DNA from: Falsirhodobacter xinxiangensis
GTDB lineage: Bacteria; Pseudomonadota; Alphaproteobacteria; Rhodobacterales; Rhodobacteraceae
Assembly: GCF_004959935.1 (NCBI RefSeq)
Contig: NZ_SMYN01000023.1
Span: 1 to 36,195, forward strand
Direction of reading: 5' to 3'
Length of the DNA stretch: 36,195 bases
A program made the translations under genes and the position numbers. Each line of letters starts with the position of its first letter. Positions within the stretch are counted from its first letter, which is position 1. The notes under the pieces were generated by a model. That model was not told the DNA's origin and did no database searches. It worked only from the letters and a program-made list of their open reading frames with translations. Shown here one piece after another: positions 7,731 through 35,499 of this stretch.

Positions 7731-8894
7731 TCAGCAGATATGTAGATCTTGCCGGATTGAAGAGAGCACTTCACAAGGCCCGTCGGGGCTTATGATGACC
7801 GTCTCGGACGCGCCAACCGTGAAATTTCCGTAGTCGCGAAGCGTTGCCGGAAGGTGGAAGACCATTCCAGGCTCGATCTCGCGTTCGACGCCCTCGAAAA
7901 GGCTCAGGATGCCACCTTCGCCCCAGTCCGGGGCAAAGGCGACGCCCATTGAATATCCGATCCGTTTGCGGAAGGCCGCCGTATAGCCAGCCTTGTCGAT
8001 GACCCTTTGCGCGGCGCGGTGCGGAGCAGCGCAGATTTGTCCCGGACGGCAAACGTCCAATGCCGCGGCAAGCGCATCGGAGGCGCATGAATGCATGGAA
8101 AGTGCTTGGGAAGGGGGCTTGCCGATCCAGACCGAACGCATCAGTGCCGAATGATAGCGGGCGTGGCTTCCGGCGATTTCCAGGAACACGCAGTCCCCGT
8201 CGCCCAGCCCCTTTCGCCGCCACGTCATGTGGGGCAGTCCGCTGCGGGGACCGGAGGAAACCAGCGGCTCCATTGCCATCGTCTCGGACCCGCTTGTGAT
8301 CGCGGCCGACATCATCGCGGCGGCCACTGCATTTTCATCCGCCCCCACGCGGCAGGTCGCTATTCCTGCCGCGATGCCCGCCTCTGCATACCGCGCGGCA
8401 TGGCGGATCGCGTCGAGTTCAGCGCTGGATTTGACGGCGCGCAGGGGCGTGATAAGGCCCGATCCGTCGTGCAGCGAACCGCCAAAGGCCATATCGAGCG
8501 CGGCCATGACGCGCGGCGAAACAAACCAGCCGTCACGTTCGATGGCGATATCGGACAGGTCCATCCCGTGGATCATGGCGACCAGTGCGGCAACCGGGTC
8601 TTCGCCGTCTTGATAGGGAACGACCGTATCGAGCCATGTATTGGCTCTGGTGCCCGCCATCTCAAGCTGGCGAACGAGCAAAACGGGCGCACCTTCGACG
8701 GGTAAGACCAATGCTTGGAATGCGAAGTATCCGGCCGTTTGGCGACCCGTCAGCCAATAGATCGCCTCCGGCCCGGTCAGTATCAAAGCGCCGAAACCAG
8801 CGGCGGCAATCGCGGCTTGTGCGCGAGCCTGGCGGCCCGCAAATTCGGCAGAAGAGAAGGCGGCTTCGGTGCCGCGCAACCAGTCGAATGTCAT
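7731..8894 (-). CDS. M24-fold hydrolase, ectoine hydrolase (DoeA/EutD)-like
   Basis: This 387-residue protein has a creatinase N-terminal domain (about 15-140) followed by a pita-bread M24 domain. In the M24 domain the usual metal ligands are lost: the two Asp positions read Glu and Ala in FLEIAGSHARYHSALMRS, the His motif reads IGYSMGVAFAPDWGEGG, and the first Glu is absent from VFHLPATL. The FLE...RYH...RS and IGYSxGxAFxPDWGE patterns are those I know from ectoine hydrolases, which open a cyclic amidine, rather than from prolidases. It is expected to be cytosolic and to hydrolyse a C-N bond in a ring or amidine-type substrate. It is the second gene of a two-gene operon, 7 nt after the first. 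The exact substrate is unknown, because the deacetylase partner of ectoine breakdown is not next to it. Confidence 0.8.
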   Translation of the reverse strand: MTFDWLRGTEAAFSSAEFAGRQARAQAAIAAAGFGALILTGPEAIYWLTGRQTAGYFAFQALVLPVEGAPVLLVRQLEMAGTRANTWLDTVVPYQDGEDPVAALVAMIHGMDLSDIAIERDGWFVSPRVMAALDMAFGGSLHDGSGLITPLRAVKSSAELDAIRHAARYAEAGIAAGIATCRVGADENAVAAAMMSAAITSGSETMAMEPLVSSGPRSGLPHMTWRRKGLGDGDCVFLEIAGSHARYHSALMRSVWIGKPPSQALSMHSCASDALAAALDVCRPGQICAAPHRAAQRVIDKAGYTAAFRKRIGYSMGVAFAPDWGEGGILSLFEGVEREIEPGMVFHLPATLRDYGNFTVGASETVIISPDGPCEVLSSIRQDLHIC

Positions 8895-8901
8895 GACAGG
8901 G

Positions 8902-10080
8902 TCACCAGAAATAATGAGGCGTGTGGGTCAGAAGCTCCAGCCCATCGGCGTTTACGATGAAGATGTCTTCGAAAAACGCGGAGCCGACGCCCTCCAGCGC
9001 CAAAAACGCTTCGACGCCGAAGACCATGTTCTGCTCTACGCGATCCTCGGGCAGGGACATCACCGTGGAAATCCGGGGCTGTTCGAAGGAAAGCCCGATT
9101 CCGTGGCCGAAGAAGGGAAAGTTCTTCATCAGCGGCGACACCTCGCCGCCGAAGGCCTGCGTCAGGCGGTCCCCTTCAACGGCCACATCCAGAAGGCGGG
9201 TGCCTGGGCGCATCATCGTGGCGAGGCGGGTTACGATATCGTTGGTTGCCTCGATCAGACGCCGCTGGTCGGCATTCGCAGGCCCTCGGACCGCCGTTCG
9301 GCCGGGGTCGAGGTAGTAACCTTGATGAAAGGCCGCATGGACAGTGCCGCGCACCATATCGCCGATGGCAGGGATGTCGGCGCTCGATCCCGTCAGCGGG
9401 TTGCGATAGTCGTACTGCATCGTCGCGCCATGATTTGTGCCGATGGCTTGAACGCGCCCGCCGCGCGCCACTGCGACACGGGCGGCGTCTCCTGCCGCCT
9501 CATGTTCGCTTTTACCGGCCAGAAGCCCGTGCATGAGCACGGTGGTGGCTTCAGTCGCGGCCTCGCCCGCGATGCGATAGCAGTCCAGTTCCGCCGGGCT
9601 TTTGATGCGGCGCAGCTGGCGGATCAAATCGTCGTATTCCACCCATTCGATCTGCGGGGTCCGTTCCACAAGTTGATTGTAATATTTGACCGGGATGAAC
9701 TGCGTGCCACACAGCGCGACACGGCCCGTGATGCCTTTTGCCACCAAGGCTTCGGCGATCCCTATGAAGGGATGATTGTGGCAGTGCACATTGTCCACCG
9801 CCAATAGATCGTCGCGGCCTTCGGGCTCGTCGATATGCAGTTCTGGCATCTTGCCGCGCTGAAGGATCACGCCCGAAAAGGACCGGGCGGACCAGATCAG
9901 GGAATCGGTGCCGCCGCTGACCGAGTAGTGGTTGGTCAGATAGAGAATGTCGCCGCAGTTGTCTGTCGTTCCGCCGCCCCGACCGAAGACGACCGCCGTC
10001 TCGAACCCGTGCGTCGCCATGAGGCTCTCGGCGCGGGCCCAGCGCCCTTCATATTCTGCGGCAGAAAAGAAGCGTTCCAT
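8902..10080 (-). CDS. M24-family peptidase/creatinase-like hydrolase
   Basis: The protein has 392 residues, close to creatinase (about 400). The N-terminal creatinase-like domain spans about 1-165 and the M24 domain about 170-390. The His motif FGHGIGLSFEQP, the Glu in VFGVEAFL and the last Glu in AFFEDIFIV are present, and the second Asp is in YYLDPGRT. The first metal Asp is replaced by a hydrophobic residue (GTVHAAFHQGYY), so a normal dinuclear metal site is unlikely. The family includes Xaa-Pro peptidases, creatinase (creatine to sarcosine and urea) and dipeptidase-like enzymes; the context favours a small nitrogen compound. It is the first gene of the minus operon and is divergent from the DUF1989-ABC operon across a region with two copies of the shared operator. 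Confidence 0.82.
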   Translation of the reverse strand: MERFFSAAEYEGRWARAESLMATHGFETAVVFGRGGGTTDNCGDILYLTNHYSVSGGTDSLIWSARSFSGVILQRGKMPELHIDEPEGRDDLLAVDNVHCHNHPFIGIAEALVAKGITGRVALCGTQFIPVKYYNQLVERTPQIEWVEYDDLIRQLRRIKSPAELDCYRIAGEAATEATTVLMHGLLAGKSEHEAAGDAARVAVARGGRVQAIGTNHGATMQYDYRNPLTGSSADIPAIGDMVRGTVHAAFHQGYYLDPGRTAVRGPANADQRRLIEATNDIVTRLATMMRPGTRLLDVAVEGDRLTQAFGGEVSPLMKNFPFFGHGIGLSFEQPRISTVMSLPEDRVEQNMVFGVEAFLALEGVGSAFFEDIFIVNADGLELLTHTPHYFW

Positions 10081-10134
10081 TCAGGGGTCCTTGATAGCAT
10101 CCGATATCTGCGGCCATAGTCTCCACATTTGGGT

Positions 10135-10147
10135 ATACCGATAGTAT
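10135..10147. promoter_or_regulatory. Candidate GntR operator, site 1
   Basis: ATACCGATAGTAT matches the island-wide palindrome ATACC-N3-GGTAT at 9 of 10 defined positions. It lies 54 nt before the M24 operon start codon (10080) and suits control of that promoter. Confidence 0.55.
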
Positions 10148-10269
10148 TCATCGATCAATCGTAAAAGCGGTGAATTTTTTAAGCGTCAGATGCGTTTGGC
10201 CGCTAAAATAAGCACACCGGCGAGAAAAATGCCCATTAGGAGGGCAAAATGGACAATTCGCATCAAGGA

Positions 10270-10282
10270 ATGCCAGTGGTAT
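10270..10282. promoter_or_regulatory. Candidate GntR operator, site 2
   Basis: ATGCCAGTGGTAT matches ATACC-N3-GGTAT at 9 of 10 defined positions and lies about 78 nt before the DUF1989 gene start. With site 1 it gives one operator per divergent promoter. Confidence 0.5.
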
Positions 10283-10360
10283 ACTTAAATCGTTTCCACA
10301 TTGCCGTTCGGAGAGTCACCAAGCCCCCATGACCAGAACGTTCTTTATCGGAGCAGCACC

Positions 10361-10960
10361 ATGACCTCTCGCCGCCATATCCTTCCTGCCGGGCAGGGTG
10401 CGGCCTTTGTGCTCAAGGCGCAGGAAACCGCGACACTGCGCAATCCGTACGGCACTCAGGTCGTTGATACATGGGCGCTGAGCCTGTCCGACCCACTGGA
10501 ATATTCGGCAATGGAACACACGCGCTCGGTCAACAGCAACTTGTTCCTTGAGCGCGGTATGTGCGTCATGTCGATCCAACGCCGCACGATGATGACGATG
10601 ACTGAAGATACGACGCCGGGTCGCCACGATACGCTTTTGTGCCCCTGCAATGCCGCGATCTATCGCGAGCTGGGTTGCAAAGGCCATCACCGCAGCTGCA
10701 CCGACAATTTCCACGAGGCGATTGCCGAGCATGGCATCTCGCTGCTCTTCACCCCCGCCTCGCTGAACGTGTTCATGAATGTGCCGGTTGCGGACGACGG
10801 CGCGCTGGACCGCCTTCCCCCCGTCAGCAAGCCCGGCGACCATGTCGCCTTCCGCGCAGAGATGGACCTGCTTCTTGTGCTGTCCGCCTGTCCGCAGGAC
10901 GTGACGCCGATCAACGGTTCCGACCACACCCCGCGCGACATCGAAGTGGACATTGCATGA
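10361..10960 (+). CDS. DUF1989 (urea carboxylase-associated) protein
   Basis: This 199-residue protein has the DUF1989 hallmarks. NPYGTQVVDTWAL lies near the N-terminus, then SVNSNLFLERGMCVMS, and then HDTLLCPCNAA followed by CKGHHRSCTDNFHEAI, where Cys and His residues are likely metal ligands. DUF1989 proteins occur beside urea/guanidine carboxylase and allophanate hydrolase genes and are needed for urea- or guanidine-type nitrogen use; their reaction is unclear. No urea carboxylase gene is here, but an arginase-fold enzyme and allophanate-hydrolase relatives (PxpB/C) are close by. The start at 10361 has GGAG about 10 nt upstream; an earlier ATG at 10301 lacks a site. The stop overlaps the ATPase start (ATGA). 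Confidence 0.85.
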   Translation: MTSRRHILPAGQGAAFVLKAQETATLRNPYGTQVVDTWALSLSDPLEYSAMEHTRSVNSNLFLERGMCVMSIQRRTMMTMTEDTTPGRHDTLLCPCNAAIYRELGCKGHHRSCTDNFHEAIAEHGISLLFTPASLNVFMNVPVADDGALDRLPPVSKPGDHVAFRAEMDLLLVLSACPQDVTPINGSDHTPRDIEVDIA

Positions 10961-11745
10961 CCGCCCCCTTTCTTGAACTTCGCGAGATCCGCAAAAGCTT
11001 CGGCGACAACGAGGTGCTCAAGGGCGTTTCGCTTGACGTCGCGCAGGGCGAGGTCGTGTCGATCATCGGCGCCTCCGGCTCGGGCAAATCGACTTTCCTG
11101 CGGTCGATCAACGCGATGGAGATGCCGCAGTCCGGCTTCATGAAATTCGAGGGGTATTCCTTCGACTACCGCGCTGAATCGCGCTTCCATCCCACGCTGG
11201 CCCAGCTTCAGAACCTGCGCGCCGAAATCGGTATGGTGTTCCAAAGCTATAACCTGTGGCCGCATATGACGGTGCTGCAGAACGTCATCCACGCCCCGAT
11301 GATGCTGCGCGGCCAAAGCAAGGCGGACGCCACCGCCGAGGGCGAGGCGCTGCTGTCACGCATCGGCCTCTACGAAAAACGCCACAGCTATCCCGGCCGT
11401 CTTTCGGGCGGGCAGCAGCAGCGCGTCGCCATAGCCCGCGCGTTGGCGATGAAGCCCAAGCTGATGCTGTTCGACGAGGTGACGTCGGCGCTCGATCCCG
11501 AACTGGTGCACGAGGTCCTGACGCTCATGGCCTCGCTGGCCGCCGACGGGATGACGATGCTGCTGGTCACGCACGAGATCGCCTTTGCCCGCGACGTGTC
11601 TAACCGCGTGCTGTTCTTCGATCAGGGGGTAATGGCCGAGCAGGGGCCGCCCGATATCGTGTTGAAAAATCCCGAGAGCCCGCGCCTGCGGCAATTCCTT
11701 CACCGCATCCTCCACGATGCCCCGTCATCGGAGGTCCGGGCATGA
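10957..11745 (+). CDS. Polar amino acid-type ABC transporter ATPase (first system)
   Basis: The 262-residue ATPase has Walker [10 protein letters not shown] (38-46), Q-loop [11 protein letters not shown], signature [14 protein letters not shown] (149 on), Walker B LMLFDE (169-174) and H-loop His206 in LLVTHE. The sequence type, including [15 protein letters not shown], is that of the HisP/GlnQ group that energises uptake of amino acids and related small nitrogen compounds. It overlaps the gene before it and the permease after it by 4 nt (ATGA), so all are translated together. With the permease at 11742 and the binding protein at 13383 it forms a transporter that has a single permease gene. 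Confidence 0.95.
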
Positions 11746-12398
11746 GCCAGCTGTTCGTAGATATCGCGCTTTACGGTCCCGGTTTCATGCGGGCTGCGTG
11801 GCTGGTGCTTTGGCTAACGGTGCTGACCATCATCGTCAGCTGGATCTGCGGGCTTGCCGCCGCGCTGGCACAACGGTCGGATTATCGCATCCTGCGGGGG
11901 ATCGCGGGGTTCTACATCTGGTTCATCCGCGGAACGCCCGCGTTGGTGCAGATCTTCATCATCTATTTCGGCCTGCCGCAGCTTGGCATCCGGCTGTCGC
12001 CCTTTACCGCCGGGGTCATCGCCCTTGGCGTGAACTCTGGCGCCTATGTGGCCGAAATCATCCGCTCGGGCCTGTCGGCGATCCACAAGGGCCAGACGGA
12101 AAGCGCGCTGGCGATCGGGTTCAGCCATGCGCAGACGATGCGCACGATCATCCTGCCGCAGGTGTTCCGCATCATCCTGCCGTCGATCACGAACGAGGCG
12201 ATCTCCACCCTGAAGAACACCTCGCTTCTCTCGGCGATCACGGTCGTGGAGCTGACGCTGTATGCTCAGACGCTCATTTCGGCCACGTTCCGCCCGTTCG
12301 ATTTCTACATCGCGGTCGCGGTCATCTATCTGGCGCTGACCTCGGTCCTGACCCAGCTCGCGAACTGGCTCGAACGCCGCTATGCAAGGCTGAGCTGA
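11742..12398 (+). CDS. Polar amino acid-type ABC transporter permease (first system)
   Basis: The protein has 218 residues with about five hydrophobic spans and belongs to the HisM/GlnP group. The EAA-type cytoplasmic loop is visible as AEIIRSGLSAIHKGQTESA ... LPQVFRIILPS. A further typical stretch is WFIRGTPALVQIFIIYFGLP. Because there is only one permease gene in this operon, the channel is probably a homodimer. The next gene starts within the stop codon (TGATG). Confidence 0.93.
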   Translation: MSQLFVDIALYGPGFMRAAWLVLWLTVLTIIVSWICGLAAALAQRSDYRILRGIAGFYIWFIRGTPALVQIFIIYFGLPQLGIRLSPFTAGVIALGVNSGAYVAEIIRSGLSAIHKGQTESALAIGFSHAQTMRTIILPQVFRIILPSITNEAISTLKNTSLLSAITVVELTLYAQTLISATFRPFDFYIAVAVIYLALTSVLTQLANWLERRYARLS

Positions 12399-13381
12399 TG
12401 AGCGTGCTTCCCACCGACTCGCTCTCCACGCCGCGTTTCGTCGGCCCGCCGACCTTTATGCGTCTGCCCATGGCGACGCGGCTGGAGAATTTGGACGCCG
12501 CGATCATCGGCCTGCCGTCCGATTCCGGGGCGCCGTATCGCACCGGCGCGCGGTTCGGGCCGAATGCCTTGCGCGCGATGTCGGTGATGCTGCGCCCGAT
12601 CAATCCCTATCGCGGCAACATCAGCATCTTCGACGTGCTGCGCGTAGCCGATGCAGGCGATGCGAATGTCGTGCCGGGATACGAGATCGAAAGCCTTGTC
12701 CAGCTTCAGGCCTTGCTGTCGGCTGTCGTATCTGCGGGCGCGGTGCCCTTCGGCATTGGCGGCGATCATTCGGTGTCGCTGGCCGCGTTGCGGGCCGTGG
12801 CGGCGCGGACGGGGCCGCTGGCGCTGATCCATTTCGACGGCCACACCGACACGTGGGACAGCTATTTCGGGGGCCAGCGTTACAGCGCCGGCACCATGTT
12901 CCGGCGCGCTTTGGAGGAGGGGATCGTCGATCCCGCCCGTTCAATCCAGGTCGGCCTGCGTGGCTCCCTTTTCCGCGACACGGATGTCAGCCAGTCGCTC
13001 GACCTCGGGTTCGAGGTCATCACCTGCGACGAGATGTTCGCGATGGGCCTGCCCGAAGTGGCCCGCCGCATTTCCGAACGTGCCGCCGGGCACTCAAGTT
13101 ATCTGAGCTTCGATCTCGATTTCGTCGATCCGGCCTATGCGCCGGGGGTGGAGACGCCCGAATGCGGCGGCCCCTCGGCGCGCGAGGCGCTTGGCCTTCT
13201 GCGCGCGCTGAAAGGCATCGATCTTGCGGGCTGCGACGTGGTCGAGCTCAATCCCCTCTATGACGGTCCGGGCCAGATCACCGCCCTGCTCGGGGCCACC
13301 GTCATGGCCGAACTTCTGGCGATCCTGGCCGAAGCAAGGCTTGAAGGCGCGGCAATGAAAAACCCGACAGCGAGTGTATGA
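12398..13381 (+). CDS. Ureohydrolase (arginase/agmatinase family)
   Basis: The 327-residue enzyme has all dinuclear manganese ligands in place: GGDHSV (His124), HFDGHTDTWD (Asp147, His149, Asp151) and SFDLDFVDP (Asp239, Asp241). Members remove urea from guanidino compounds such as agmatine, guanidinobutyrate, guanidinopropionate or arginine. The substrate cannot be fixed from the motifs, but the agmatinase-like layout and the transporter context suggest an imported guanidino acid or amine. Being inside an ABC operon, between the permease and binding-protein genes, argues that it acts on the transported compound or its first product. The urea released would fit the DUF1989 partner. Confidence 0.93.
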   Translation: MSVLPTDSLSTPRFVGPPTFMRLPMATRLENLDAAIIGLPSDSGAPYRTGARFGPNALRAMSVMLRPINPYRGNISIFDVLRVADAGDANVVPGYEIESLVQLQALLSAVVSAGAVPFGIGGDHSVSLAALRAVAARTGPLALIHFDGHTDTWDSYFGGQRYSAGTMFRRALEEGIVDPARSIQVGLRGSLFRDTDVSQSLDLGFEVITCDEMFAMGLPEVARRISERAAGHSSYLSFDLDFVDPAYAPGVETPECGGPSAREALGLLRALKGIDLAGCDVVELNPLYDGPGQITALLGATVMAELLAILAEARLEGAAMKNPTASV

Positions 13382-13382
13382 G

Positions 13383-14177
13383 ATGAAATTGAAATTCTTG
13401 GCGCTTGGCGCCGTGACTGCCCTTTCGATGGCCTTTGCGACCGGTGCCATGGCGCAGGGAGAGCTGGAGCTGCTGGTCCCCGGCAAGCTGAGCGCGGCGA
13501 CGGAAGGGACCTATCCTCCCTTCTCCATGCGCGCGCCCAGCGGCGAGCTGGACGGGCTGGAAATCCGCATCATGTCCGAGGTGGCAAAGCGTCTTGGCCT
13601 CGAATACGACCCCGTGCTGGTGAAATGGGAAAGCGTGCTGATCGGGCTCGAAGCCGACCAGTATGACATCATCAGTGTCGCCATGGACATCACCGAGGAA
13701 CGCCAGAAGGCCGTGACCTTCGCCGATGGCTGGCTTGAATCGGGCGGCCGCGTGATCGTGCGCGAGGGCAGCGAGATCACCACCCCGGCGGGCATCGCGG
13801 CACATCCGGTCGGCGGGCTGGTCGCTTCCAACTGGACCAAGATCGCCGAGGATCTTGGCGGCGAGGTCAAAGCCTACAAGGCGGAATCCGATGCGGTGCA
13901 GGATCTGGTCAACGGCAACGTCGATGCGATCGTGACCGACGCGGTCGCCGCGGGCTACACCATCAAGGCGTCGAACCTTCCGCTGGTGATGCTGGAAGAG
14001 CCGGTCAGCAGCATCCAGAAGGGCTTCGCGATCAAGAAGGGCAAGCCCAACCTGACCGCTGCCGTGAACAAGGCGCTGGCCGACATGATTGCGGATGGAA
14101 CCTATGCGCGGCTGACGACGGAACTCGTCGGCTACTCGCCCGCGCCGGCAAATCCGATCCGCAGCCTGGCCGAATAA
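13383..14177 (+). CDS. Periplasmic amino acid-type binding protein (first ABC system)
   Basis: A 264-residue SBP_bac_3-type protein. The signal peptide is MKLKFLALGAVTALSMAFAT followed by GAMAQ, with cleavage expected after AMA. The mature start GTYPPFSMRAPSGELDGLEI, the ESVLIGLEADQYDII segment and FAIKKGKPNLTAAVNKAL are family hallmarks. The start at ATG 13383 fits a signal peptide; it follows the ureohydrolase stop by one base. Being last in the operon is unusual, since binding proteins are commonly first. It is convergent with pxpB, with 15 nt between stops. Confidence 0.93.
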   Translation: MKLKFLALGAVTALSMAFATGAMAQGELELLVPGKLSAATEGTYPPFSMRAPSGELDGLEIRIMSEVAKRLGLEYDPVLVKWESVLIGLEADQYDIISVAMDITEERQKAVTFADGWLESGGRVIVREGSEITTPAGIAAHPVGGLVASNWTKIAEDLGGEVKAYKAESDAVQDLVNGNVDAIVTDAVAAGYTIKASNLPLVMLEEPVSSIQKGFAIKKGKPNLTAAVNKALADMIADGTYARLTTELVGYSPAPANPIRSLAE

Positions 14178-14192: not shown

Positions 14193-14933
14193 TTAACCCG
14201 CAACCTCGTAATCGGCGCAGATTTCGCCCTTGGCCGACCGCGCGTCCAGCGCGGTCGCTTCGTTTTCGGTGACGGGGTGGAAGCGGATCATGTCGCCGGG
14301 GCGGAAGGCGAAGACCTCCTCGCGGGCCGGATCGAAGCTGCGCAGGGGCGTGCGTCCCAGAAACCGCCATCCGCTGGGGGAGGGCAGCGCCCCGATACAT
14401 GCCTGCGCCCCGCCAATGGCGATCCCGCCTGCGGAGGTCAATTGGCGGGGCGTGGTCAGACGCGGGGTATGAAGCGTCTCGGGCAATCCACCCAGATAGG
14501 TGAAGCCCGGTGCAAAGCCGATCATGTAGACGCGGTAATCGACCGACCCGTGCAGCGCGATCAGCGCTTCCGTCGTCATGCCATTCATCTCGGCCATTTC
14601 GTCCAGATCCAGTCCGGCATCGTGGCCGTAGAGCACCGGAACATGCCACAGTCGGGTGCCCTGCATGCGCCCGCCTGCCTTTTGCGCCATGATCGCCAAC
14701 GTCTCGGCCAGTACCGCGCCGCGGATTACGCCGGGATCGTAAAGGACCAGAAGCGATCGGTACGTCGGCACCGTCTCTGTCACGCCCAACACACCTTCGG
14801 CCTGCAGAGCCTGATCCAGCGCGATGACCCTGTCGTGCAGTTCTACGGAAATCGCGTCCCCGAATTCCACGACCAGTGCTGCGTCACCCGCAGGAAGGAT
14901 GCGTGGCGCCGTGCTTGTGCTAGGGTGGGTCAT
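14193..14933 (-). CDS. pxpB: 5-oxoprolinase/allophanate hydrolase-like subunit PxpB
   Basis: This 246-residue protein of the PxpB/KipI (allophanate hydrolase subunit 1) family has AGDAALVVEFGD at the start, VPTYRSLLVLYDP, and the core IGFAPGFTYLGGLP. PxpB works with PxpA and PxpC to open 5-oxoproline with ATP. Here it is separated from pxpA and pxpC by about 4.5 kb and is read from its own promoter, with the shared operator at 14978. I chose ATG 14933 (MTHPSTSTAPRILPAGD) because the ATG at 15020 would place the operator inside the gene and adds a non-family N-terminus. The true ring substrate may be something other than 5-oxoproline. Confidence 0.9.
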   Translation of the reverse strand: MTHPSTSTAPRILPAGDAALVVEFGDAISVELHDRVIALDQALQAEGVLGVTETVPTYRSLLVLYDPGVIRGAVLAETLAIMAQKAGGRMQGTRLWHVPVLYGHDAGLDLDEMAEMNGMTTEALIALHGSVDYRVYMIGFAPGFTYLGGLPETLHTPRLTTPRQLTSAGGIAIGGAQACIGALPSPSGWRFLGRTPLRSFDPAREEVFAFRPGDMIRFHPVTENEATALDARSAKGEICADYEVAG

Positions 14934-14977
14934 CCAGCCATCTCCGAAGTGTTTCCGCAGCGGGTTGCCTGATGCGT

Positions 14978-14990
14978 ATACCGCTGGTAT
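14978..14990. promoter_or_regulatory. Candidate GntR operator, site 3 (perfect)
   Basis: ATACCGCTGGTAT is a perfect ATACC-N3-GGTAT palindrome, in the 92-bp gap between divergent pxpB (14933) and the hydroxyacid reductase (15026). It lies 36-45 nt from each start and could control both. Confidence 0.65.
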
Positions 14991-22057: not shown

Positions 22058-22077
22058 ACCGAGGCTGCAAGGGTTTT

Positions 22078-28026: not shown

Positions 28027-28028
28027 CG

Positions 28029-28718
28029 TTACACCTTCCAGCTGAAGCGGCGTTCAAGCCAGCGGGCAAGAATGACCGCGGGCAGGAAGATCGCGAGGTA
28101 GGCGGCGGCGGCCATGGTCAGCGGCGTTGCCGACCCGGACATCGCCTGCGCCGATGACGACACCGCAAGAACCTCTTTGACCCCGATGACCGATCCAAGC
28201 GCCGTCATCTTGGTGATGGCCAGCGATCGGTTGACCAGCGACGGCACGCCCATCCGGACCGCCTGCGGCAGCGCGACCCAAATCAGCGTCTGCGCGAAGG
28301 ACATGCCGGTGGCGCGCCCCGCTTCCCACTGGCCGCGGGGCAGGGCGGTCAGGCCGGCCCAGAATATCTCCTCGCAGAACGCAGCCAGAACGGCGGCCAG
28401 CACGATGAACAGGACCAGTGGCCCCGACATCATCACACCAAGCCCGGGCAGCCCGAAATAGAAGATCAGGATCAGAACCAGCGGCGGCAGCGCGCGAAGG
28501 ATGTCCGCGAACATCACGATGGGAACTGTAAGCCACCAGACCTGCAGGCTGCGAAGACAGGCCAGCACGAGCCCGACCGCGACGCCTGTCACGATGATGA
28601 TTGCCCCCAGCCAAAGCGTCGTGACCATCGCCGACAAAAGGTCCGGCAGGTAACGGTCGATGATCGCGCCGTCAAAGAACACTTCGACAAAACGTTGGAA
28701 TCCGGCAGGTGCGTTCAT
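28029..28718 (-). CDS. Polar amino acid-type ABC transporter permease (second system, A)
   Basis: The 229-residue protein has about five membrane spans and an EAA loop ([20 protein letters not shown], then [14 protein letters not shown]). The conserved [20 protein letters not shown] stretch has a close match in its partner ([20 protein letters not shown]), indicating that the two permeases arose by duplication. The start overlaps the ATPase stop by 4 nt. Confidence 0.93.
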
Positions 28719-29473
28719 TCCGCCCCCGCATGGTGCGAGACGCGCGACAGGAAGGCGCGGGTGCGGTCATGTTGCGGGTTGCCGAAGATCGCCTCGGGCG
28801 GGCCCTGTTCGACCACGACGCCGCCATCCATGAAGACGACGCGGTCGGCGGCTTCGCGCGCAAAGGCCATCTCGTGACTGACGACCAACATGGTCATCCC
28901 TTCGGCGCGCAGGTCTTTCATCACCTTCAGGACCGACCCGACGAGTTCGGGATCCAGCGCCGAGGTCGGCTCGTCGAACAGCATCACCTTCGGGTTCAGC
29001 GCAAGGGCGCGGGCGATGGCGACGCGCTGTTGCTGGCCGCCCGAAAGCTCGCTCGGCATGGCGTCCGCCTTGTGGGCAAGGCCGACACGATCCAGCATGT
29101 CCATCGCGCGGGTGCGGGCGGTAACCTTGTCTCGCTTCAGCGCTTTGATCTGCGCCAGCATGACGTTCCTTACCACGCTCATATGCGGGTAGAGATGAAA
29201 GCCTTGGAACACCATTCCCGTTTGAAGCCGCAGGCGGTTCAACTCGGCGGCGGGGCAGTTCACGATGTTGCGCCCGTCGATGAAGATGGAGCCCGAGGTC
29301 GGCTCCTCCAGCCGATTGCAGCAGCGCAGCATGGTGGATTTGCCCGAACCGGACGGACCGATGACGAAGACCAGTTCGCCCCGTCCGACCTTCAGGTCAA
29401 TGCTCCGCAGAACCTCGACAGTTCCGAAGCGCTTTTCCAGCGCGGTGATTTCCAGCATCGGCGTCTGTGCCAT
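28715..29473 (-). CDS. Polar amino acid-type ABC transporter ATPase (second system)
   Basis: The 252-residue ATPase has Walker [10 protein letters not shown] (39-47), signature [15 protein letters not shown] (from 143), Walker B VMLFDE (163-168) and H-loop His200. It is of the GlnQ/HisP type. I start at ATG 29473 ([17 protein letters not shown]), since the family's N-terminus begins a few residues before the first strand; an upstream start at 29518 adds 15 atypical residues. The binding-protein gene ends 55 nt before it. Confidence 0.94.
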
Positions 29474-29528
29474 GGTGCCTCGCAGATTTGTCGGGTTACG
29501 GTGCCGAGGGGCTGGCACCGCCGAGGGA

Positions 29529-30371
29529 TCAGAAGGAACAGCTCACCTCGTGGGGGGTGTCGTCGTATCCATCGGAGCCGGGGGTGCCGTAGCCCGGGGT
29601 CGGGGTGACGATGGTCGTGCCAGCGGCGGGCGTGACGCCCAGCCATTTTTCGGAGAGGGCGGCAAGCGATCCGTCGGATTTCAGGCATTCAATCACCGCA
29701 TCGATGCGGTTGCGGTTTTCCACGTCGTCCTTGCGGAAGGGGAATGCCCAGACCAATCCGGTCGCGATCTCGGCGCCCAGCATCATGCGCGGGTTGCGCT
29801 TTACCGCCCATGCCGCGCTTGTATGGCCTGCAAGTGCCGCAAAGGCGCGGCCCGTCATCACGGCCTCGACCGCGTCCGAGGTGGTGCCGTAGGACATGAC
29901 GGTCAGCTCCAGCTCCGCCGCCTTCTCGTTCAGATAGGCTTCGTAATTCGAGCCCTTGTTCACCGCCAGCGTCTTGCCGCGATAATCTTCGATGGTCGTC
30001 CCCGCTCCGCTGCCCGCGAGCTGTACGAAGGCATAGTTGGTATCCATGAAGCCTTCGGTGAACAGCATATTGGCCGACCGTTCCTCGCTCACCGTGACGG
30101 GGGCGACGAGGAAATCGTAGGTGCCTGCCTGGAGCGCGGGAACGAGGCCCGCGAATTGCGCGGCGTCGATCTGGATCGTCGTTCCCAGCCGTTCAGCAAC
30201 GAGGTTCGCAAGATCGACGTTGAACCCTTCGATCCCTCCCGAAAGGCTGGGCATGGCATGGGGCGCGAAGGTGCCGTCCAATGCGACCTTCAGCCCGTCC
30301 TGCGCGATTGCGGCATTCGTCATCAGGCCGGCCGCGCAGCCAAGCGCGGTGGCAAGAACCCGGAATTTCAT
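29529..30371 (-). CDS. Periplasmic amino acid-type binding protein (second ABC system)
   Basis: The 280-residue SBP_bac_3-type protein has the signal peptide [20 protein letters not shown] then AIAQ, followed by [20 protein letters not shown] and [14 protein letters not shown]. The usual fold ends near SEKWLGV, but this protein continues for about 34 residues in a Thr/Pro/Gly-rich tail ([17 protein letters not shown]) that ends ...VSCSF with a Cys two residues before the C-terminus. A GGAGAG ribosome binding site supports ATG 30371. It is the first gene of the eight-gene hydantoinase operon. Confidence 0.92.
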
Positions 30372-30664: not shown

Positions 30665-31963
30665 TCACCGTGCCATCAGGTTCGGGACGATATCGACGAT
30701 TCCCGGAAACAGCCCGATCAGCACCACGAAAGCGGCAAGGATCATGAAGAACGGGAAGGTCGACCGCGTGATGCGCCCGATGCTGTCCCCCGTCAGGCGC
30801 TGGATGACGTTGAGGTTGAACCCCACGGGCGGCGATATCTGGGCCATTTCGATCACGATGACCATGAAGATGCCGAACCAGACCTTGCTGTAGCCCGCCG
30901 CCTCGACCAGCGGCAGGGTGATGGGCAATGTCATGACGATGCAGCCCAGACCCTCCATCACCGTTCCAAGCAGGATATAGAACGCCAGCAGCACAAGGAT
31001 GAGCGCAAAGGGCGACAGACCCCAACCGTCGATGGTCGATGCGATGAAACGCGGCAGTCCAAGATAGCCGATGGCCGTGGACAGGAACATCGCGCCGACC
31101 ATGATGATGCCGATCATCGCGCAACCGTTCGCGGCGGAACGGGCCGAGGCGATCAGACCGCCGAAATCCAGCGTACGCTGCCAGAAGCCGATGCCGATGG
31201 CCCCCGCAACCCCCACCGCCGCCGCCTCGGTCGGCGAGGCGATGCCGCCATACATCGACCCGATCACGACAAGGATCAGTATCAGCAGCGGCCCCAGATC
31301 CTTCAGCGCGATCAGCTTTTCCAGAAACGTCGATTTCGGCGGCGCGGCCCCCACCAGCGCGGGGTTCAGCAGGGCACGGATGGCGATATAGCCCGAGTAG
31401 CTGCCCGCGATCATCAATCCGGGCAGAATGCCAGCGATGAACAGCCGCAGGATCGATTCTTCGGCCATCACGCCATAAATGATCATGATGGTCGAGGGCG
31501 GGATCAGGAACCCCAACGTTCCCGCCCCTGCAAGCGAGCCGGTGACCAGCGCGCGGTCATAGCCGCGATCCAGAAGCTCTTTGGCGGTGATCCGCCCCAC
31601 CGTCGCCGTGGTCGCGGCCGAAGATCCGCAAACCGAGGCGAAGAGCGTGCAGCCCAGCACGGTCAGGTGTCCGAGCCGTCCGGGCACCCGACGCAGCCAC
31701 GGCGCAAGGCCGGAAAACAGCGCTTCGGAGATGCGGGTGCGGAACAACAGCTCTGCCATCAGAATGAACAGCGGCAGTGCCAGCAATTCGGGCGAGGTAA
31801 GCGTGTTGAAGGCCTGTTGCGCCAGAAGCTTGTCGAAGGGCATGGCCGGGCGGAACACCGCCAGAAGGCCGATGCCGGTCCCAACAAGGCCGATGCCTAT
31901 CCAGACGCCGGCGCCCAGGATCAGCGTCATCATCCCAAGCAACGAAAAGGTGACCATACCCAT
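30665..31963 (-). CDS. dctM: TRAP transporter large permease, DctM type
   Basis: The 432-residue membrane protein has about 11-12 hydrophobic segments. The family motifs are visible: ALPLFILMAELLFRT, GTLGFLIPPSTIMIIYGV, ASPTEAAAVGV, and the C-terminal EMAQISPPVGFNLNVI. It moves substrate using the sodium or proton gradient together with DctQ and the binding protein DctP. The ATG at 31963 overlaps the DctQ stop (ATGA). TRAP systems usually carry carboxylates, including some cyclic and N-containing acids such as ectoine and pyroglutamate. Confidence 0.95.
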   Translation of the reverse strand: MGMVTFSLLGMMTLILGAGVWIGIGLVGTGIGLLAVFRPAMPFDKLLAQQAFNTLTSPELLALPLFILMAELLFRTRISEALFSGLAPWLRRVPGRLGHLTVLGCTLFASVCGSSAATTATVGRITAKELLDRGYDRALVTGSLAGAGTLGFLIPPSTIMIIYGVMAEESILRLFIAGILPGLMIAGSYSGYIAIRALLNPALVGAAPPKSTFLEKLIALKDLGPLLILILVVIGSMYGGIASPTEAAAVGVAGAIGIGFWQRTLDFGGLIASARSAANGCAMIGIIMVGAMFLSTAIGYLGLPRFIASTIDGWGLSPFALILVLLAFYILLGTVMEGLGCIVMTLPITLPLVEAAGYSKVWFGIFMVIVIEMAQISPPVGFNLNVIQRLTGDSIGRITRSTFPFFMILAAFVVLIGLFPGIVDIVPNLMAR

Positions 31964-32517
31964 CACTCGATCCCCTCGCCACGCGCGAGCCTTGCCCCGC
32001 CGATCACGCGCAACAACTGCGCCACGATCTGAAGCGTCAGCAGCAGCGATCCCGCGGCCAGCACCGCCTGCGGCACGGCAAGCGGGATGCGCACGACAGA
32101 GGCCGAGGTCGAACCCCGTTGGAAGGACAGCCACGCCATCTCGGTCAAAGCGGCGGTCAGGACGGCAGTGATGCCAAGGCCAACGACCGCCGCCACTCCG
32201 TCCAGTATTCGCGACCCGCGAGGCGACATCGCATCGGCAACGCCGCTGACACGGACATGGCTGCCCTCCTTCAACGCACTGGCCGCAGCCAGCATGAAAC
32301 AGGCCCCCATCAGAAACGCCGAAACGTCCCATGAGAAGGGAATGGATCGGTTCAGAACGTTGCGCGACACGATCTCGGCCCCGACGAGGACGAAGATCGC
32401 CAGAAGGCACAGCGCGGAGAGGAGGTTGGCGGCCTCGGTCGCGCGGTCGATGGGGCGCAGGAGGCGCGCAAAGGGTTCGTCCCTTTGGACGCCCGCGGGC
32501 AAAGCAAGATCTCGCAT
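31963..32517 (-). CDS. dctQ: TRAP transporter small permease, DctQ type
   Basis: The 184-residue protein has four hydrophobic segments, with the family feature VGAEIVSRNVLNRSIPFSWD after the first span. It links the DctM permease to the periplasmic binding protein. It begins 5 nt after the DctP stop and overlaps the DctM start. Confidence 0.93.
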   Translation of the reverse strand: MRDLALPAGVQRDEPFARLLRPIDRATEAANLLSALCLLAIFVLVGAEIVSRNVLNRSIPFSWDVSAFLMGACFMLAAASALKEGSHVRVSGVADAMSPRGSRILDGVAAVVGLGITAVLTAALTEMAWLSFQRGSTSASVVRIPLAVPQAVLAAGSLLLTLQIVAQLLRVIGGARLARGEGIE

Positions 32518-32522
32518 GACGA

Positions 32523-33497
32523 TCAGTCGCGCGCGGCCAGATAGGCGTCGATCACCGGCGCGGCATCCGGAACCCGCGTCTTGAATGCGTCCCAGAGCGG
32601 GGTCGCAACCGCCATGAGTTCGGCCTTCAGCTCTTCGGAGGGAGGGGTGACGATGACGCCGTGCTCTTCCAGCATGGCGATCTTCTGGGCATCCTCGGCG
32701 CGGGAATTCAGCCAGAACTGCCCTTCGATACCCGCCGCGACGGCCTCGATGGCAGCTTGGGTTTCAGGCTCCAGGTCATTCCACGCATCGAGGTTGACGG
32801 TCACGATGTTGGACGAAGCCTGCCAGTTGAAGGTGTTCATGTTCTGCATGAATTCCCAGAACGCCCCGTCCACCCCCGACGAAGACGAGGTGGTCACGGA
32901 ATTGATCGTTCCCGCGGCCAATGACGGGACCACTTCGCCCCACGGCATCTGGACAGGCGCCGCGCCGAGCGCCTCAAAAAAGCTGTGCCCATTGGCATCG
33001 ACGACCCGGATCTTCATACCCGCCAGATCGGCTGTACTTTTGATGGGATTGTCCGAGAACACGGCCTGACCGGGCCACGGGGTCATGTAGAGCACCTTCT
33101 GGTTCATCTCGGCCGCGATCTCTTCGATTTTGGGACGATAGAATTTATGAAGCAGCGCAAGATCCTGCGATGTCGGGGCAAGATAGGGAAGCGTTTCGAT
33201 CCCGAGCGCCGGATTCTCGCCGACCTGCTGACTCATCAGGATGTCGGCGATGGGAACGATGCCGTCACGGACGGCGGCCATTCCCTCGGGGCCTTTGATG
33301 CCCAACGCGCCGCCGGAATGGACGGTCACGGTCACGGCACTGTCGGTCGCTTCGGCAATGCCTTCGGCAAAGGCCTGGGCGTTGCGTGTGTGAAAGTTCC
33401 CCTCGGGCCAGACGACCGACATATCCCAATGAGTTTCGGCCAGCGCGGGGGATGCTGTCATGAATGCGGCGAAAAAGGCAATGGGGTGATGTTTCAT
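32523..33497 (-). CDS. dctP: TRAP transporter substrate-binding protein, DctP type
   Basis: The 324-residue protein has signal peptide MKHHPIAFFAAFMTASPALA, then a DctP-family fold. DLAGMKIRVVDANGHSFFEA provides the conserved Arg that binds the substrate carboxylate; MPWGEVVPSLAAGTINSVTT is the other family hallmark. An AGGGAAA ribosome binding site precedes ATG 33497. It is the first gene of the minus TRAP operon, divergent from the DapA-fold gene across a region with two operator sites. The ligand is unknown. Confidence 0.94.
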   Translation of the reverse strand: MKHHPIAFFAAFMTASPALAETHWDMSVVWPEGNFHTRNAQAFAEGIAEATDSAVTVTVHSGGALGIKGPEGMAAVRDGIVPIADILMSQQVGENPALGIETLPYLAPTSQDLALLHKFYRPKIEEIAAEMNQKVLYMTPWPGQAVFSDNPIKSTADLAGMKIRVVDANGHSFFEALGAAPVQMPWGEVVPSLAAGTINSVTTSSSSGVDGAFWEFMQNMNTFNWQASSNIVTVNLDAWNDLEPETQAAIEAVAAGIEGQFWLNSRAEDAQKIAMLEEHGVIVTPPSEELKAELMAVATPLWDAFKTRVPDAAPVIDAYLAARD

Positions 33498-33586: not shown

Positions 33587-33599
33587 ATACCATACGTAT
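33587..33599. promoter_or_regulatory. Candidate GntR operator, site 5
   Basis: ATACCATACGTAT matches ATACC-N3-GGTAT at 9 of 10 defined positions, 90 nt upstream of dctP. A second TATACC half-site follows at 33597-33602, giving two GGTAT-type half-sites in the same direction on the minus strand. Confidence 0.5.
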
Positions 33600-33695
33600 A
33601 CCTAAAATCATGCGCAAAATATTTATGCAGTCCTTCTCCCGATGCATAGCAATTGGGCGGTGGAGATACGTCTCGCGAATCCATGGGAGCGCCGA

Positions 33696-33733
33696 TTGAC
33701 ATACATCGCGACGCTCCGGCATACCAATGGTAC
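33696..33733 (+). promoter_or_regulatory. Promoter and GntR operator (site 6) of the dapA-like operon
   Basis: A perfect -35 box TTGACA (33696-33701) is followed about 17-18 nt later by the -10 area, which the operator ATACCAATGGTAC (33721-33733; 9 of 10 positions) overlaps. A regulator bound there would block RNA polymerase, so repression by a GntR protein is the natural reading. The start codon is 34 nt beyond. Confidence 0.5.
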
Positions 33734-33767
33734 ACAATAGCGACACAGTTCTAAAAGGCCCTTCCGG

Positions 33768-34697
33768 ATGAGCTTCGACACATTGAACAAGGCGACCGGC
33801 GTCTATGTCATCTCGGTCACCCCTTTCCTGCCCGACGGCGCGATCGACTTCGAAAGTCTTGATAGACTTGTGGATTTCTATGCGTCGGCGGGGGCGACGG
33901 GGCTGACCATCCTTGGGATGATGGGCGAGGCACAAAAGCTGACGCAGGCGGAATCCGTGCAGGTGACGGAGCGCGTTCTGGCGCGTGCCGGTGCGCTGCC
34001 AGTGGTGGTGGGTGTTTCGGCCCCCGGCCTTGCCGCCGTGCGCGAACTTGGCCTTCAGGCGATGAATCTGGGTGCGGCGGGGGTGATGATCACGCCGCCC
34101 ATGACACTCAGAACGGATGACCAGATCATCAACTATTACCATCAGGCGGACGAAGCGCTAGGCAGCGACGTGCCCATAGTGCTTCAGGATTTCCCGCTTG
34201 CGACCGGGGTGCAGATCTCGAACGCGGCATTGGGCCGAATCATCGAAGGCGTGCCTTCGATCGCAATGCTCAAACACGAGGATTGGCCGGGCCTCGCCAA
34301 GATTTCGGCGCTGCGCGAGGCCGAGGCCGGGGGCCGCCGCCGCATCTCTATCCTGACGGGCAACGGCGGGATCTTCCTGCCCGAGGAGATGGTGCGTGGT
34401 GCGGATGGCGCAATGACCGGCTTTTCCTATCCAGAAATGATGGTTGGCGTGTGCCGACTGATGGCCGAGGGTCGCACGGATGCGGCGCAGGACCTTTTCG
34501 ATGCTTACCTGCCCTTCGCCCGCTATGAACAGCAGCCCGGCCTCGGTCTGGCGATCCGCAAGCACATTCTCGCCCGCCGCGGCGTCATCGCACATGATGC
34601 GCTGCGAAAGCCGGGACAGAGACTGAGCGCCGAGGACATCAAGGACATCGACCTGCTTATCGCACGTCAGGAACAACACCTGCGCCGGATCGGCTGA
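33768..34697 (+). CDS. DapA/NAL-superfamily protein with altered active site
   Basis: This 309-residue DHDPS-like TIM-barrel protein keeps the Schiff-base Lys (IAMLKHED) but has lost the usual proton-relay residues: the GTTGE motif reads GMMGE, the YNxP motif reads QDFP, and the PyY motif reads TPPMTL. It is therefore unlikely to make dihydrodipicolinate and may be an aldolase, lyase or dehydratase for another 2-oxo acid. It is the first gene of a plus-strand pair with the SDR and is divergent from the TRAP operon, so it probably acts on the imported acid or a product of it. Confidence 0.85.
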   Translation: MSFDTLNKATGVYVISVTPFLPDGAIDFESLDRLVDFYASAGATGLTILGMMGEAQKLTQAESVQVTERVLARAGALPVVVGVSAPGLAAVRELGLQAMNLGAAGVMITPPMTLRTDDQIINYYHQADEALGSDVPIVLQDFPLATGVQISNAALGRIIEGVPSIAMLKHEDWPGLAKISALREAEAGGRRRISILTGNGGIFLPEEMVRGADGAMTGFSYPEMMVGVCRLMAEGRTDAAQDLFDAYLPFARYEQQPGLGLAIRKHILARRGVIAHDALRKPGQRLSAEDIKDIDLLIARQEQHLRRIG

Positions 34698-34710
34698 GAA
34701 GGAGACGACT

Positions 34711-35499
34711 ATGGATCTTCAACTGAAAAACCGCCGCGCCCTCGTGTTGGCATCGTCGCGCGGCCTTGGCTTGGGCGTGGCCAGCGCGCTGGTCGCCGAA
34801 GGTGCGCATGTGCTTTTAACCGGACGGGACGCAGCGCGGTTGCAGTCCGCCGCCGAGGCGCTTTCGAGCTCAGGGCCGGGCAGGGCCGATTGGGTCACCT
34901 GCGATCTGTCGGAGCAAGGCGCCGTCGACACTCTGGTGGATGCCGTGGCGGACAAGATGGGCGGGATCGATATCCTTGTGAACAATTCGGGCGGTCCGGC
35001 GCCGGGTCCCGTTGCCGCCAGCCAGCCCGACCAATGGCAGGCGGGCTTCGGAATGATGGTCGAGCCGCTCATTGTTTTGACCCATGCTCTGCTTCCGCAG
35101 ATGCGAGCACAAAAATGGGGCCGCATCCTTACGCTTGGATCGTCGGGCGTGGAGCAGCCGATCCCAAACCTTGGCATATCGAATACCCTGCGCGGGGCGC
35201 TTGCCGGCTGGTCCAAGACACTTGCTGCCGAGGTGGCGGGCGAAGGAGTAACGGCGAACATGCTGGTTCCTGGCCGTATCCATACCGATCGCGTGGACGA
35301 ACTCGACGCCGCCGCCGGCGCTCGAAGCGGAATGACACAGGCCGAAGTTGCAGCGGCCTCGCGCGCAACGATCCCCGCCGGGCGTTACGGCCTGATCGAG
35401 GAATTCGCCGCCGTGGCCGCCTTCCTCGTAAGCGGCGCCGCCAGTTACGTGACAGGATCTATCGTCCGCTGCGATGGTGGGATGATCCGCGGGATATAA
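34711..35499 (+). CDS. Atypical short-chain dehydrogenase/reductase
   Basis: The 262-residue SDR has a Rossmann fold: ALVLASSRGLGLGVA replaces TGxxxGIG, and VNNSGG is in the NNAG position. The catalytic Tyr-x3-Lys is absent, since the place reads ISNTLRGAL (Ser-x3-Arg). The closing VTGSIVRCDGGMI is typical. The SNxxR variant is a known atypical SDR subgroup whose members may have a different mechanism or be poor catalysts. AGGAG lies 8 nt before the ATG. It follows the DapA-like gene by 13 nt and is the last gene of the island. Confidence 0.87.
   Translation: MDLQLKNRRALVLASSRGLGLGVASALVAEGAHVLLTGRDAARLQSAAEALSSSGPGRADWVTCDLSEQGAVDTLVDAVADKMGGIDILVNNSGGPAPGPVAASQPDQWQAGFGMMVEPLIVLTHALLPQMRAQKWGRILTLGSSGVEQPIPNLGISNTLRGALAGWSKTLAAEVAGEGVTANMLVPGRIHTDRVDELDAAAGARSGMTQAEVAAASRATIPAGRYGLIEEFAAVAAFLVSGAASYVTGSIVRCDGGMIRGI

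Follow-up and report, generated by a model that had tools for sequence, protein, structure and literature searches.

Use of 5-oxoproline by Corynebacterium glutamicum requires only PxpABC, a transporter and the GntR-type regulator PxpR, as far as the excerpted account of the pxpTABC system goes (PMC13274462). In hyu clusters, the carbamoylase gene lies upstream of the hydantoinase gene, an order that the excerpted source describes for Aminobacter DSM24754 and compares with that in R. sphaeroides 2.4.1 (PMC3546935). The ectoine hydrolase DoeA works with a deacetylase, so that ring opening is followed by removal of an acyl group (PMC5924519, as excerpted). A 2025 paper reports, in the part consulted, that two DctP receptors of Bordetella pertussis, BP1887 and BP1891, bind pyroglutamate (PMC12344293). 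Here we describe a gene island from Falsirhodobacter xinxiangensis that combines relatives of these systems. The island occupies positions 7731 to 35499 of a 36,195-bp stretch (the window) that is part of a 3.97 Mb genome. A preliminary description had proposed that its enzymes jointly serve one undescribed pathway for a cyclic amide, ureide or amidine.

By gene content and neighbourhood, the island instead consists of two modules. Module A is a core around PxpABC that recurs in many genomes and shares a putative operator. Module B is a hydantoinase-carbamoylase-racemase operon with its own ABC transporter (ABC2); it is separate from the core and is joined to it here and, complete, in one further lineage (L026). 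Like pxpTABC, the island pairs PxpABC with transport under GntR-type regulation. Unlike that system as excerpted, it has both TRAP and ABC transporters, two GntR proteins, and added genes for an ectoine-hydrolase-like M24 enzyme (M24a), an M20 amidase, a 2-hydroxyacid dehydrogenase (HADH2) and a D-amino-acid transaminase (DAAT). Module B has its carbamoylase gene upstream of its hydantoinase gene, as in the Aminobacter and R. sphaeroides hyu clusters; unlike those clusters in the excerpted description, it adds a racemase, a LysR regulator and a four-gene ABC transporter and adjoins module A. M24a carries DoeA motifs and in most relatives stands in a run with an M20 deacylase-type gene, an arrangement that resembles DoeA/EutD with its deacetylase. 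Unlike in that system, the M20 partner belongs to the carbamoylase family (or is ArgE/DapE-like in a variant cluster described below), and PxpABC is present.

Recurrence of the core module

One scan of named genomes with HADH2 (17865-18809, - strand) as the bait returned 56 loci, which were taken with flanks that end at 10 kb or at contig ends. The 31 island proteins were compared with these loci by tblastn, and presence was called at 45% identity or more (60% for ABC ATPases, the ABC1 permease and DctM) over at least half of the query. The pxpC gene lay beside HADH2 in 43 of the 56 loci, whose record titles span more than 20 alphaproteobacterial genera; we take these to belong to Rhizobiales and Rhodobacterales. 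The core comprises PxpABC, DAAT, M20, HADH2, two GntR regulators and M24a, and its variable members are a second M24 enzyme (M24b), a DUF1989 protein, an ABC transporter (ABC1), a ureohydrolase, the TRAP transporter and a DHDPS-superfamily enzyme. Among the 43 loci with pxpC we found pxpA, pxpB, GntR1 and GntR2 in 42 each, M20 and M24a in 37 each and DAAT in 31. A VOC (glyoxalase-fold) gene was present in 29, the ABC1 ATPase and permease in 25, the ABC1 solute-binding protein (SBP1) and M24b in 24 each, DUF1989 in 20, dctP in 19 and DHDPS in 15. The ureohydrolase (9 loci), a short-chain dehydrogenase (SDR; 9) and a second 2-hydroxyacid dehydrogenase (HADH1; 6) are scarce enough in these flanks to be unlikely as obligatory steps of one linear pathway. 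From module B and its border, the N-carbamoyl-D-amino-acid hydrolase (DCase) occurred in three loci, and the hydantoinase (HYD), LysR1 and LysR2 in two each. M20 is missing from L003, L014 and L041, where the gap between HADH2 and GntR1 leaves no room for it. The 13 loci without pxpC include four from Bordetella, three of them with M20 adjoining HADH2; the others have HADH2 with few or no island genes, and L017 and L021 carry HADH1 and LysR1.

The genes pxpABC, DAAT, M20, HADH2, M24a, M24b, DUF1989, ABC1 and TRAP therefore recur together in many genomes, and the comparison supports a gene set that is not a chance neighbourhood. The outcome that the preliminary description named as refuting, blocks that never occur together in other genomes, is contradicted by these loci. 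Whether the order would be conserved across genomes with the same set had been raised in the preliminary description, and it is not: both order and orientation of module A genes differ from locus to locus among the 56. The placement of DAAT inside the pxp operon holds in the window, where the gene lies between pxpA and pxpC. Elsewhere it holds only in the near-identical L001; most other loci have pxpA-DAAT divergent from pxpB-pxpC. L001, from Cereibacter flavus, is the closest named relative among the fetched loci, with 95.7% DNA identity to window positions 7867-28806.

The cluster is a patchy accessory. Annotated plasmid copies of module A occur in Agrobacterium tumefaciens, Salipiger, Shinella and Rhizobium tumorigenes. 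The core is also carried by Paracoccus denitrificans (L064). Among 337 genomes sampled from the class, four have an M24b match and six an M24a match at E<=1e-90 (own genome counted), which is too rare for unbiased co-occurrence statistics. Of 149 genomes from the family, three have an M20 match at E<=1e-100, again counting our own.

Orientation, gaps and start-codon analysis divide the island into about ten transcription units rather than one. At the left, M24b (8902-10080) and M24a (7731-8894) form a unit on the - strand. The + strand then carries DUF1989 (10361-10960), the ABC1 ATPase (10957-11745) and permease (11742-12398), the ureohydrolase (12398-13381) and SBP1 (13383-14177), with the ureohydrolase inside the ABC1 operon (10957-14177). 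PxpB (14193-14933, -) and HADH1 (15026-15979, +) are separate units. A single - strand run from 22010 to 15980 follows, with pxpA (21237-22010), DAAT (20383-21240), pxpC (19441-20379), GntR2 (18806-19444), HADH2, M20 (16624-17868) and GntR1 (15980-16627); with the chosen starts, five of its six junctions show a 4-bp overlap between a stop codon and the next start codon. LysR1 (22078-22926, -) and VOC (23015-23428, +; PF00903) precede the - strand hydantoinase operon. The right end holds dctP (32523-33497), dctQ (31963-32517) and dctM (30665-31966) on the - strand, and DHDPS (33768-34697) with SDR (34711-35499) on the + strand. The regulators, the transporter components and SDR were assigned by family scans. 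Co-transcription, as previously proposed, thus applies within runs and does not extend to the island as one unit. Family scans located every enzyme of the preliminary inventory, to which we add the VOC protein, the DHDPS-family enzyme, SDR, two GntR and two LysR regulators.

The GTATAC operator and the hydantoinase operon

A palindrome search found six GTATAC sites in the 36,195 bp. Five lie in promoter gaps: two between M24b and DUF1989 (10133 and 10279, within 10120-10300), one between PxpB and HADH1 (14976, within 14970-14990), one upstream of pxpA (22054, within 22048-22064) and one, accompanied by a near-match pair, between dctP and DHDPS (33596, within 33590-33740). The sixth (20891) is inside DAAT. 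With flanks the consensus is approximately TGGTATACTGAAA, centred on GTATAC, and an upstream half site, ATAC, is frequent; the PxpR operator of C. glutamicum, for comparison, is agattgttcaacaatct in the excerpted account (PMC13274462).

We examined this palindrome in 47 relatives, excluding L001, in the promoter regions of pxpA, pxpB, M24b, DUF1989, the ABC1 ATPase and dctP (n=104; sister strains contribute some near-duplicates, and some divergent gene pairs share one region). GTATAC was present in 74 of the 104 regions, which contain 78 of the 96 GTATAC sites of the 47 loci. The next hexamer palindromes were GCGCGC, in 31 of the 104 regions, and ATCGAT, in 20; GCGCGC is common in this GC-rich DNA, with 1938 sites. 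Counted by gene in 48 loci, L001 included, the operator precedes pxpA in 35/48, pxpB in 28/48, M24b in 23/27, DUF1989 in 20/22, dctP in 19/22 and the ABC1 ATPase in 8/36. SBP2 heads the hydantoinase operon, and none of 14 regions upstream of it, two of which represent a single place, contains the operator; the window and an annotated Alloyangia plasmid (L117) lack it there as well. The putative operator defines a regulon of the pxpA, pxpB-pxpC, M24b, DUF1989-ABC1 and TRAP operons with the downstream DAAT, HADH2 and M20 genes and often M24a, probably run by the module's own GntR proteins. The operators shared across the island, as first described, are real at core promoters; the hydantoinase operon appears to lie outside the regulon, and joint regulation is supported for the core only.

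Module B runs from 30371 to 23430 on the - strand. Its gene order is SBP2 (29529-30371), ATPase (28715-29473) and two permeases (28029-28718 and 27361-28026), which make up ABC2 (27361-30371), followed by DCase (26429-27346), HYD (24973-26427), the hydantoin racemase HyuE (24356-24976) and LysR2 (23430-24356). HYD, a D-hydantoinase/dihydropyrimidinase, exceeds the cutoffs of TIGR02033 (513.7 bits against 393.25) and PRK13404 (748 against 647), and HyuE matches PF01177 with 168.5 bits. DCase belongs to the CN_hydrolase family, and the gene at the same position of the Alloyangia operon is annotated as N-carbamoyl-D-amino-acid hydrolase.

Of the 47 genomes with HADH2 loci, 19 contain relatives of DCase (E<=1e-60), at 31 places altogether; for 16 of these places we fetched the surrounding region, up to 20 kb in size. 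The order SBP2-ATPase-permB-permA-DCase-HYD is found in 13 of the 16 regions (L101, L103-L111 and L113-L115), continuing with HyuE-LysR2 in 12, and L117 has the same module B gene order. At most of its places in the genomes searched, the module is distant from the core. In L001 and L026 the whole module lies no more than 25 kb from module A. Elsewhere a LysR2-DCase pair stands alone beside the core, with no hydantoinase (L044), and DCase-LysR2-VOC stands alone about 20 kb from the core (L047). A carbamoylase gene was thus seen near the core three times, once with the complete module, where about 0.3 would be expected by chance; this estimate, made by hand and ignoring kinship, takes 30 carbamoylase places (L001 excluded), a target of 50 kb and a genome size of roughly 5 Mb.

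Away from the core, module B has a few suggestive neighbours. It adjoins a DAAT homolog (58% identical) in L114, a HADH1 homolog (40%) with LysR1, VOC and SDR in L111, and VOC with or without SDR or a fumarylacetoacetate-hydrolase-family gene in L107, L109, L110 and L117. The remaining regions have none of the DAAT, HADH1, VOC and SDR neighbours. Where VOC occurs elsewhere without the core, at most a LysR, a GhrA-type reductase or a TRAP transporter is annotated nearby. VOC relatives (63-88% identical) are found on 52 plasmid records, often with a divergent LysR, and the annotation of L119-L122 shows no core cluster around them. On plasmid pMET1 of Aminobacter sp. NyZ550 (L118), LysR-VOC lies beside an oligopeptide ABC transporter, an aminopeptidase P-family gene and an hpa cluster. 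Given the plasmids annotated with VOC and no core, VOC was dropped as a pathway marker.

Predicted enzyme functions and rival readings

All three PxpABC subunits exceed their family cutoffs (PxpA, PRK05406.1-3, 357.3 bits against 226; PxpB, TIGR00370, 162.8 against 145.55; PxpC, TIGR00724, 277.7 against 230.2). PxpC misses the PxpC_5OPro equivalog cutoff of 500, with 239.7 bits (186.2 for a second set in the genome), which sets the island apart from the C. glutamicum comparison. The second PxpA locus (L149, C67:58500-67500) holds a PRK05463 hydro-lyase, an open reading frame matching PxpB and PxpC, and biotin carboxylase; judged by these genes it is a different PxpABC-type system in the same genome. 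DAAT reaches the PRK06680 cutoff (354.3 against 320) and misses that of TIGR01121 (221.9 against 277.45), and M20 is a hydantoinase/carbamoylase-family amidase (TIGR01879, 230.6 bits against 204). HADH2 is PGDH-like. HADH1 (PF02826) is GhrA-like, at 171 bits below the GhrA cutoff of 403. The DHDPS-superfamily enzyme matches 3dz1 with 320 bits and L-2-keto-3-deoxyarabonate dehydratase with 103 bits.

In an alignment to 6twj and 6twk, the M24a regions PHMTW, LEIAG, RYH, GYSMG..PDWGE and EPGMVFH match DoeA. A DoeA-type active site replaces the M24 metal site, the prolidase metal ligands are absent, and the motifs are kept in 45 aligned sequences. M24b is a divergent relative, identified by family scan and alignment, that keeps four of the five prolidase metal ligands, with Thr for the first Asp. 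Its predicted fold is nearest EutD/DoeA, then prolidases and creatinases; we used the fold alone because the model has a mean pLDDT of 75.6 and poor loops, and we make no claim of creatine or creatinine use because the Foldseek matches to DoeA, prolidases and creatinases are about equal. DUF1989 (PF09347, 174.7 bits; 3oru, 160 bits) falls below the cutoffs of UAAP2 (111.1 against 284.7) and UAAP1 (73.7 against 205.95). The ureohydrolase has the arginase fold (PF00491) and is guanidino-acid-hydrolase-like: it is nearest 3-guanidinopropionase 3nip (267 bits), followed by guanidinobutyrase (236) and proclavaminate amidinohydrolase (234), and lies below the agmatinase cutoffs (TIGR01230, 164.6 against 174.3; PRK02190, 263.1 against 302).

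In the family of solute-binding proteins to which SBP1 and SBP2 belong, a pocket Arg and Asp hold the alpha-carboxylate and alpha-amine of the ligand. SBP1 is of the amino-acid type and retains both residues (27 aligned sequences); its predicted ligand is a free alpha-amino acid. SBP2 retains the Arg and has Gly in place of the Asp (15 aligned sequences), as expected for an N-substituted acid ligand. The best PDB sequence matches of DctP are 2pfz (134 bits) and 2pfy (131 bits), which we take to be BP1887 and BP1891, so that DctP resembles the pyroglutamate-binding receptors of B. pertussis, as a distant match only.

On balance we favour, with modest confidence, a model of two catabolic modules side by side, A a regulon shared by Rhizobiales and Rhodobacterales and B an independent hydantoin operon, that would converge on one transaminase. 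From the gene content we infer an order of reactions in which TRAP and ABC1 would take up the substrates of module A, PxpABC would act on a lactam and open the cyclic amide, and M24a with the M20 amidase would cleave an amidine or ureide. The last two would form a ring-opening and deacylating pair by analogy to DoeA and its deacetylase (PMC5924519, as excerpted). Optional guanidino chemistry could be added by M24b, DUF1989 and the ureohydrolase. DAAT would then transaminate a D-amino acid, and HADH2, HADH1, DHDPS and SDR could carry out reductase or aldolase steps. In module B, uptake by ABC2 and the action of racemase, D-hydantoinase and D-carbamoylase would also yield a D-amino acid; delivery to the same DAAT may be why module B was recruited beside module A. 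As substrates we consider alpha-amino acids of about the size of glutamate, cyclised or N-blocked, the most likely class. PxpABC and the pyroglutamate-type DctP are both compatible with cyclic compounds of that size, and so is the fact that glutamine has a cyclic amidine, ADPC, which the excerpted sources describe as a synthetic solute formed by a side reaction (PMC5924519, PMC4795551).

Several observations weigh against this model. The locus counts are not independent, because many loci come from related Rhizobium and Agrobacterium strains and all were retrieved with a single bait. DAAT was not found within the fetched flanks in 12 of the 43 loci. Elsewhere the genome encodes another DAAT (56% identical) and another PxpA/PxpB set (48% and 34%), so the island copies are not the sole ones. 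A complete module B adjoins module A in only one lineage (L026) besides the window and L001. D-2-hydroxyacid dehydrogenases have an Arg-Glu-His catalytic triad; HADH2 keeps the Arg and His and has Ala at the Glu position. Among 64 aligned sequences only 12 have Glu there and 32 have Gly, and the reaction of HADH2 is therefore uncertain. GTATAC is rare in the promoters of DHDPS (2/18), SDR (2/15), HADH1 (1/6) and VOC (0/34) in the 48 loci, so these genes may be tied to the regulon through neighbouring operons or not at all. Finally, VOC and LysR1 also travel without the core, which makes VOC beside module B weak evidence and places the weight of the module B neighbourhoods mainly on L114 and L026.

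The same separateness of module B would suit chance stacking on an accessory replicon, with module A a system for 5-oxoproline (pyroglutamate) or similar compounds with extras, module B a system for hydantoins or dihydropyrimidines, and neither dependent on the other. Module B lies mostly away from the core, lacks its operator, and stands complete beside it in a single lineage besides this species; IS6-family sequence is present on both sides of the island; and the three components excerpted for C. glutamicum suffice there for 5-oxoproline use (PMC13274462). Plain 5-oxoproline use, however, needs neither M24a nor M20, each of which accompanies PxpABC in 37 of the 43 loci, and the carbamoylase genes that L026, L044 and L047 have no more than 25 kb from the core exceed the chance expectation given above. 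We regard stacking as possible but doubtful. We assign a still lower probability to the original proposal, one linear pathway for one compound that would use all listed enzymes for uptake, ring opening, carbamoyl or guanidino loss, transamination and reduction, and consider it improbable. Every part is present, and module A, which recurs, has a common operator; to that extent the proposal is supported in part. The ureohydrolase, HADH1, SDR and the hydantoinase, however, are found in only 9, 6, 9 and 2 of the 43 relatives (10 kb flanks), L003, L014 and L041 have neither M20 nor space for it, and module B, mostly distant, carries a LysR of its own and lacks the operator.

An ectoine or hydroxyectoine utilisation cluster could be read from M24a, M24b and the Ehu-like ABC proteins, and M24a does have the DoeA active-site motifs. 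Its scores against the ectoine hydrolase models, however, are 176 bits for a cutoff of 613 and 260 bits (DoeA_2) for a cutoff of 575; ABC1 and ABC2 fall below the Ehu cutoffs; and no EutE/DoeB-type deacetylase turned up in family scans of the island. A Rhizobium jaguaris plasmid (L069) has, some 8 kb from ehuB, an M24 relative with only 37% identity. With model cutoffs missed and partners missing, we rejected this reading as highly improbable. Creatine or creatinine use was also set aside, as no sarcosine-handling gene turned up in the island scans.

Related clusters, flanking DNA and significance

A related cluster with an M24a 52-55% identical to ours is present in Agrobacterium fabrum C58 pAt, Pantoea At-9b and Shinella PSBB067. 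Like the island, it has a GntR regulator, an ABC transporter and varying subsets of DHDPS, SDR, VOC, a HADH1-like reductase and DAAT. In place of PxpABC and the carbamoylase, it has a mandelate-racemase-family enzyme, an ArgE/DapE-like M20 and a CTP-synthase-like amidotransferase, with no PxpABC in the stretch read. The mandelate-racemase-family enzyme matches the N-acetyl-D-Glu racemase DgcA weakly (112.9 of 400 bits). This second type of M24a cluster recurs in L065, L067, L068 and L136-L140, with the mandelate-racemase-family enzyme and the ArgE/DapE-like M20, and in several with the amidotransferase. We know of no function assigned to it, and a literature search by guessed locus tags only returned no match. 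A second M24a (50-53% identical) is present in 5 of the 47 genomes, and the two cluster types may coexist in one genome.

Other neighbourhoods are more loosely related. Methylobacterium radiotolerans has M20-pxpA-pxpB-pxpC-VOC and ABC1-GntR-M24a, with a hydantoin-racemase-like gene, a dihydroorotase-family amidohydrolase and a second carbamoylase-family M20 nearby. In Bordetella L054, creatininase-family and Asp/Glu/hydantoin-racemase-family genes precede M20-HADH2, an order that would fit the cyclic-amide theme, although one locus is not proof. In these variant arrangements deacylation appears to accompany the hydrolysis of a cyclic amide, amidine or ureide, which is suggestive only. Around distant M24b relatives we saw scattered links in L133 and L135 (a DUF1989 domain opposite M24b in one case, a ureohydrolase and a 2-hydroxyacid dehydrogenase near another M24b) and none in L134, and substrate inference from these neighbours was rejected.

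A more speculative extension, which we think unlikely though worth stating, is an as yet undescribed class of bacterial nutrient pathway. In it, interchangeable front ends would release one glutamate-like D-amino acid from its cyclic forms (lactam, amidine or hydantoin) for a shared transaminase and DHDPS-type aldolase/dehydratase. The front ends would be PxpABC with M24a and the carbamoylase, the mandelate-racemase-family enzyme with M24a and the amidotransferase-like hydrolase, and the hydantoinase with the D-carbamoylase. Candidate compounds include ADPC, 4-substituted pyroglutamates and hydantoin-5-propionate. If true, this would give the D-hydantoinase/D-carbamoylase pair a natural role.

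The DNA on both sides of the island carries IS6-family sequence. On the left is an IS240-type DDE element (5907-6726) with 21-nt terminal inverted repeats that are 90% complementary. On the right is a truncated remnant (35631-35812), 79% identical to the left element and in the same orientation, followed by a transposase fragment (35886-36194). These flanks suggest past mobilisation of the island. Further left, a gene on the - strand (1218-2582) codes for a beta-glucanase-like protein with EglC and ExoK-type matches and RTX-type calcium-binding repeats, and one on the + strand (3328-3837) for a small, probably secreted protein whose C-terminal end we take to be a VPLPA-type sorting signal. Directly 3' of the latter gene lies a 40-nt sequence that is 95% self-complementary (3911-3950), perhaps a transcription terminator.

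We found no title or abstract describing the gene set or its main pairs in the open-licence PMC literature, which leaves subscription journals largely outside; within that literature, the earlier statement that no pathway with this set has been described holds. The parts belong to known families, and the regulon and the combination appear undescribed. The conserved operator and the recurrent set make module A a defined regulon that can be tested with few candidate nitrogen sources. Copies in plant-associated and marine bacteria, several of them on plasmids, suggest that the substrate is a widely available and overlooked nutrient. The regulon might also reveal the natural role of the industrially used D-hydantoinase and D-carbamoylase.

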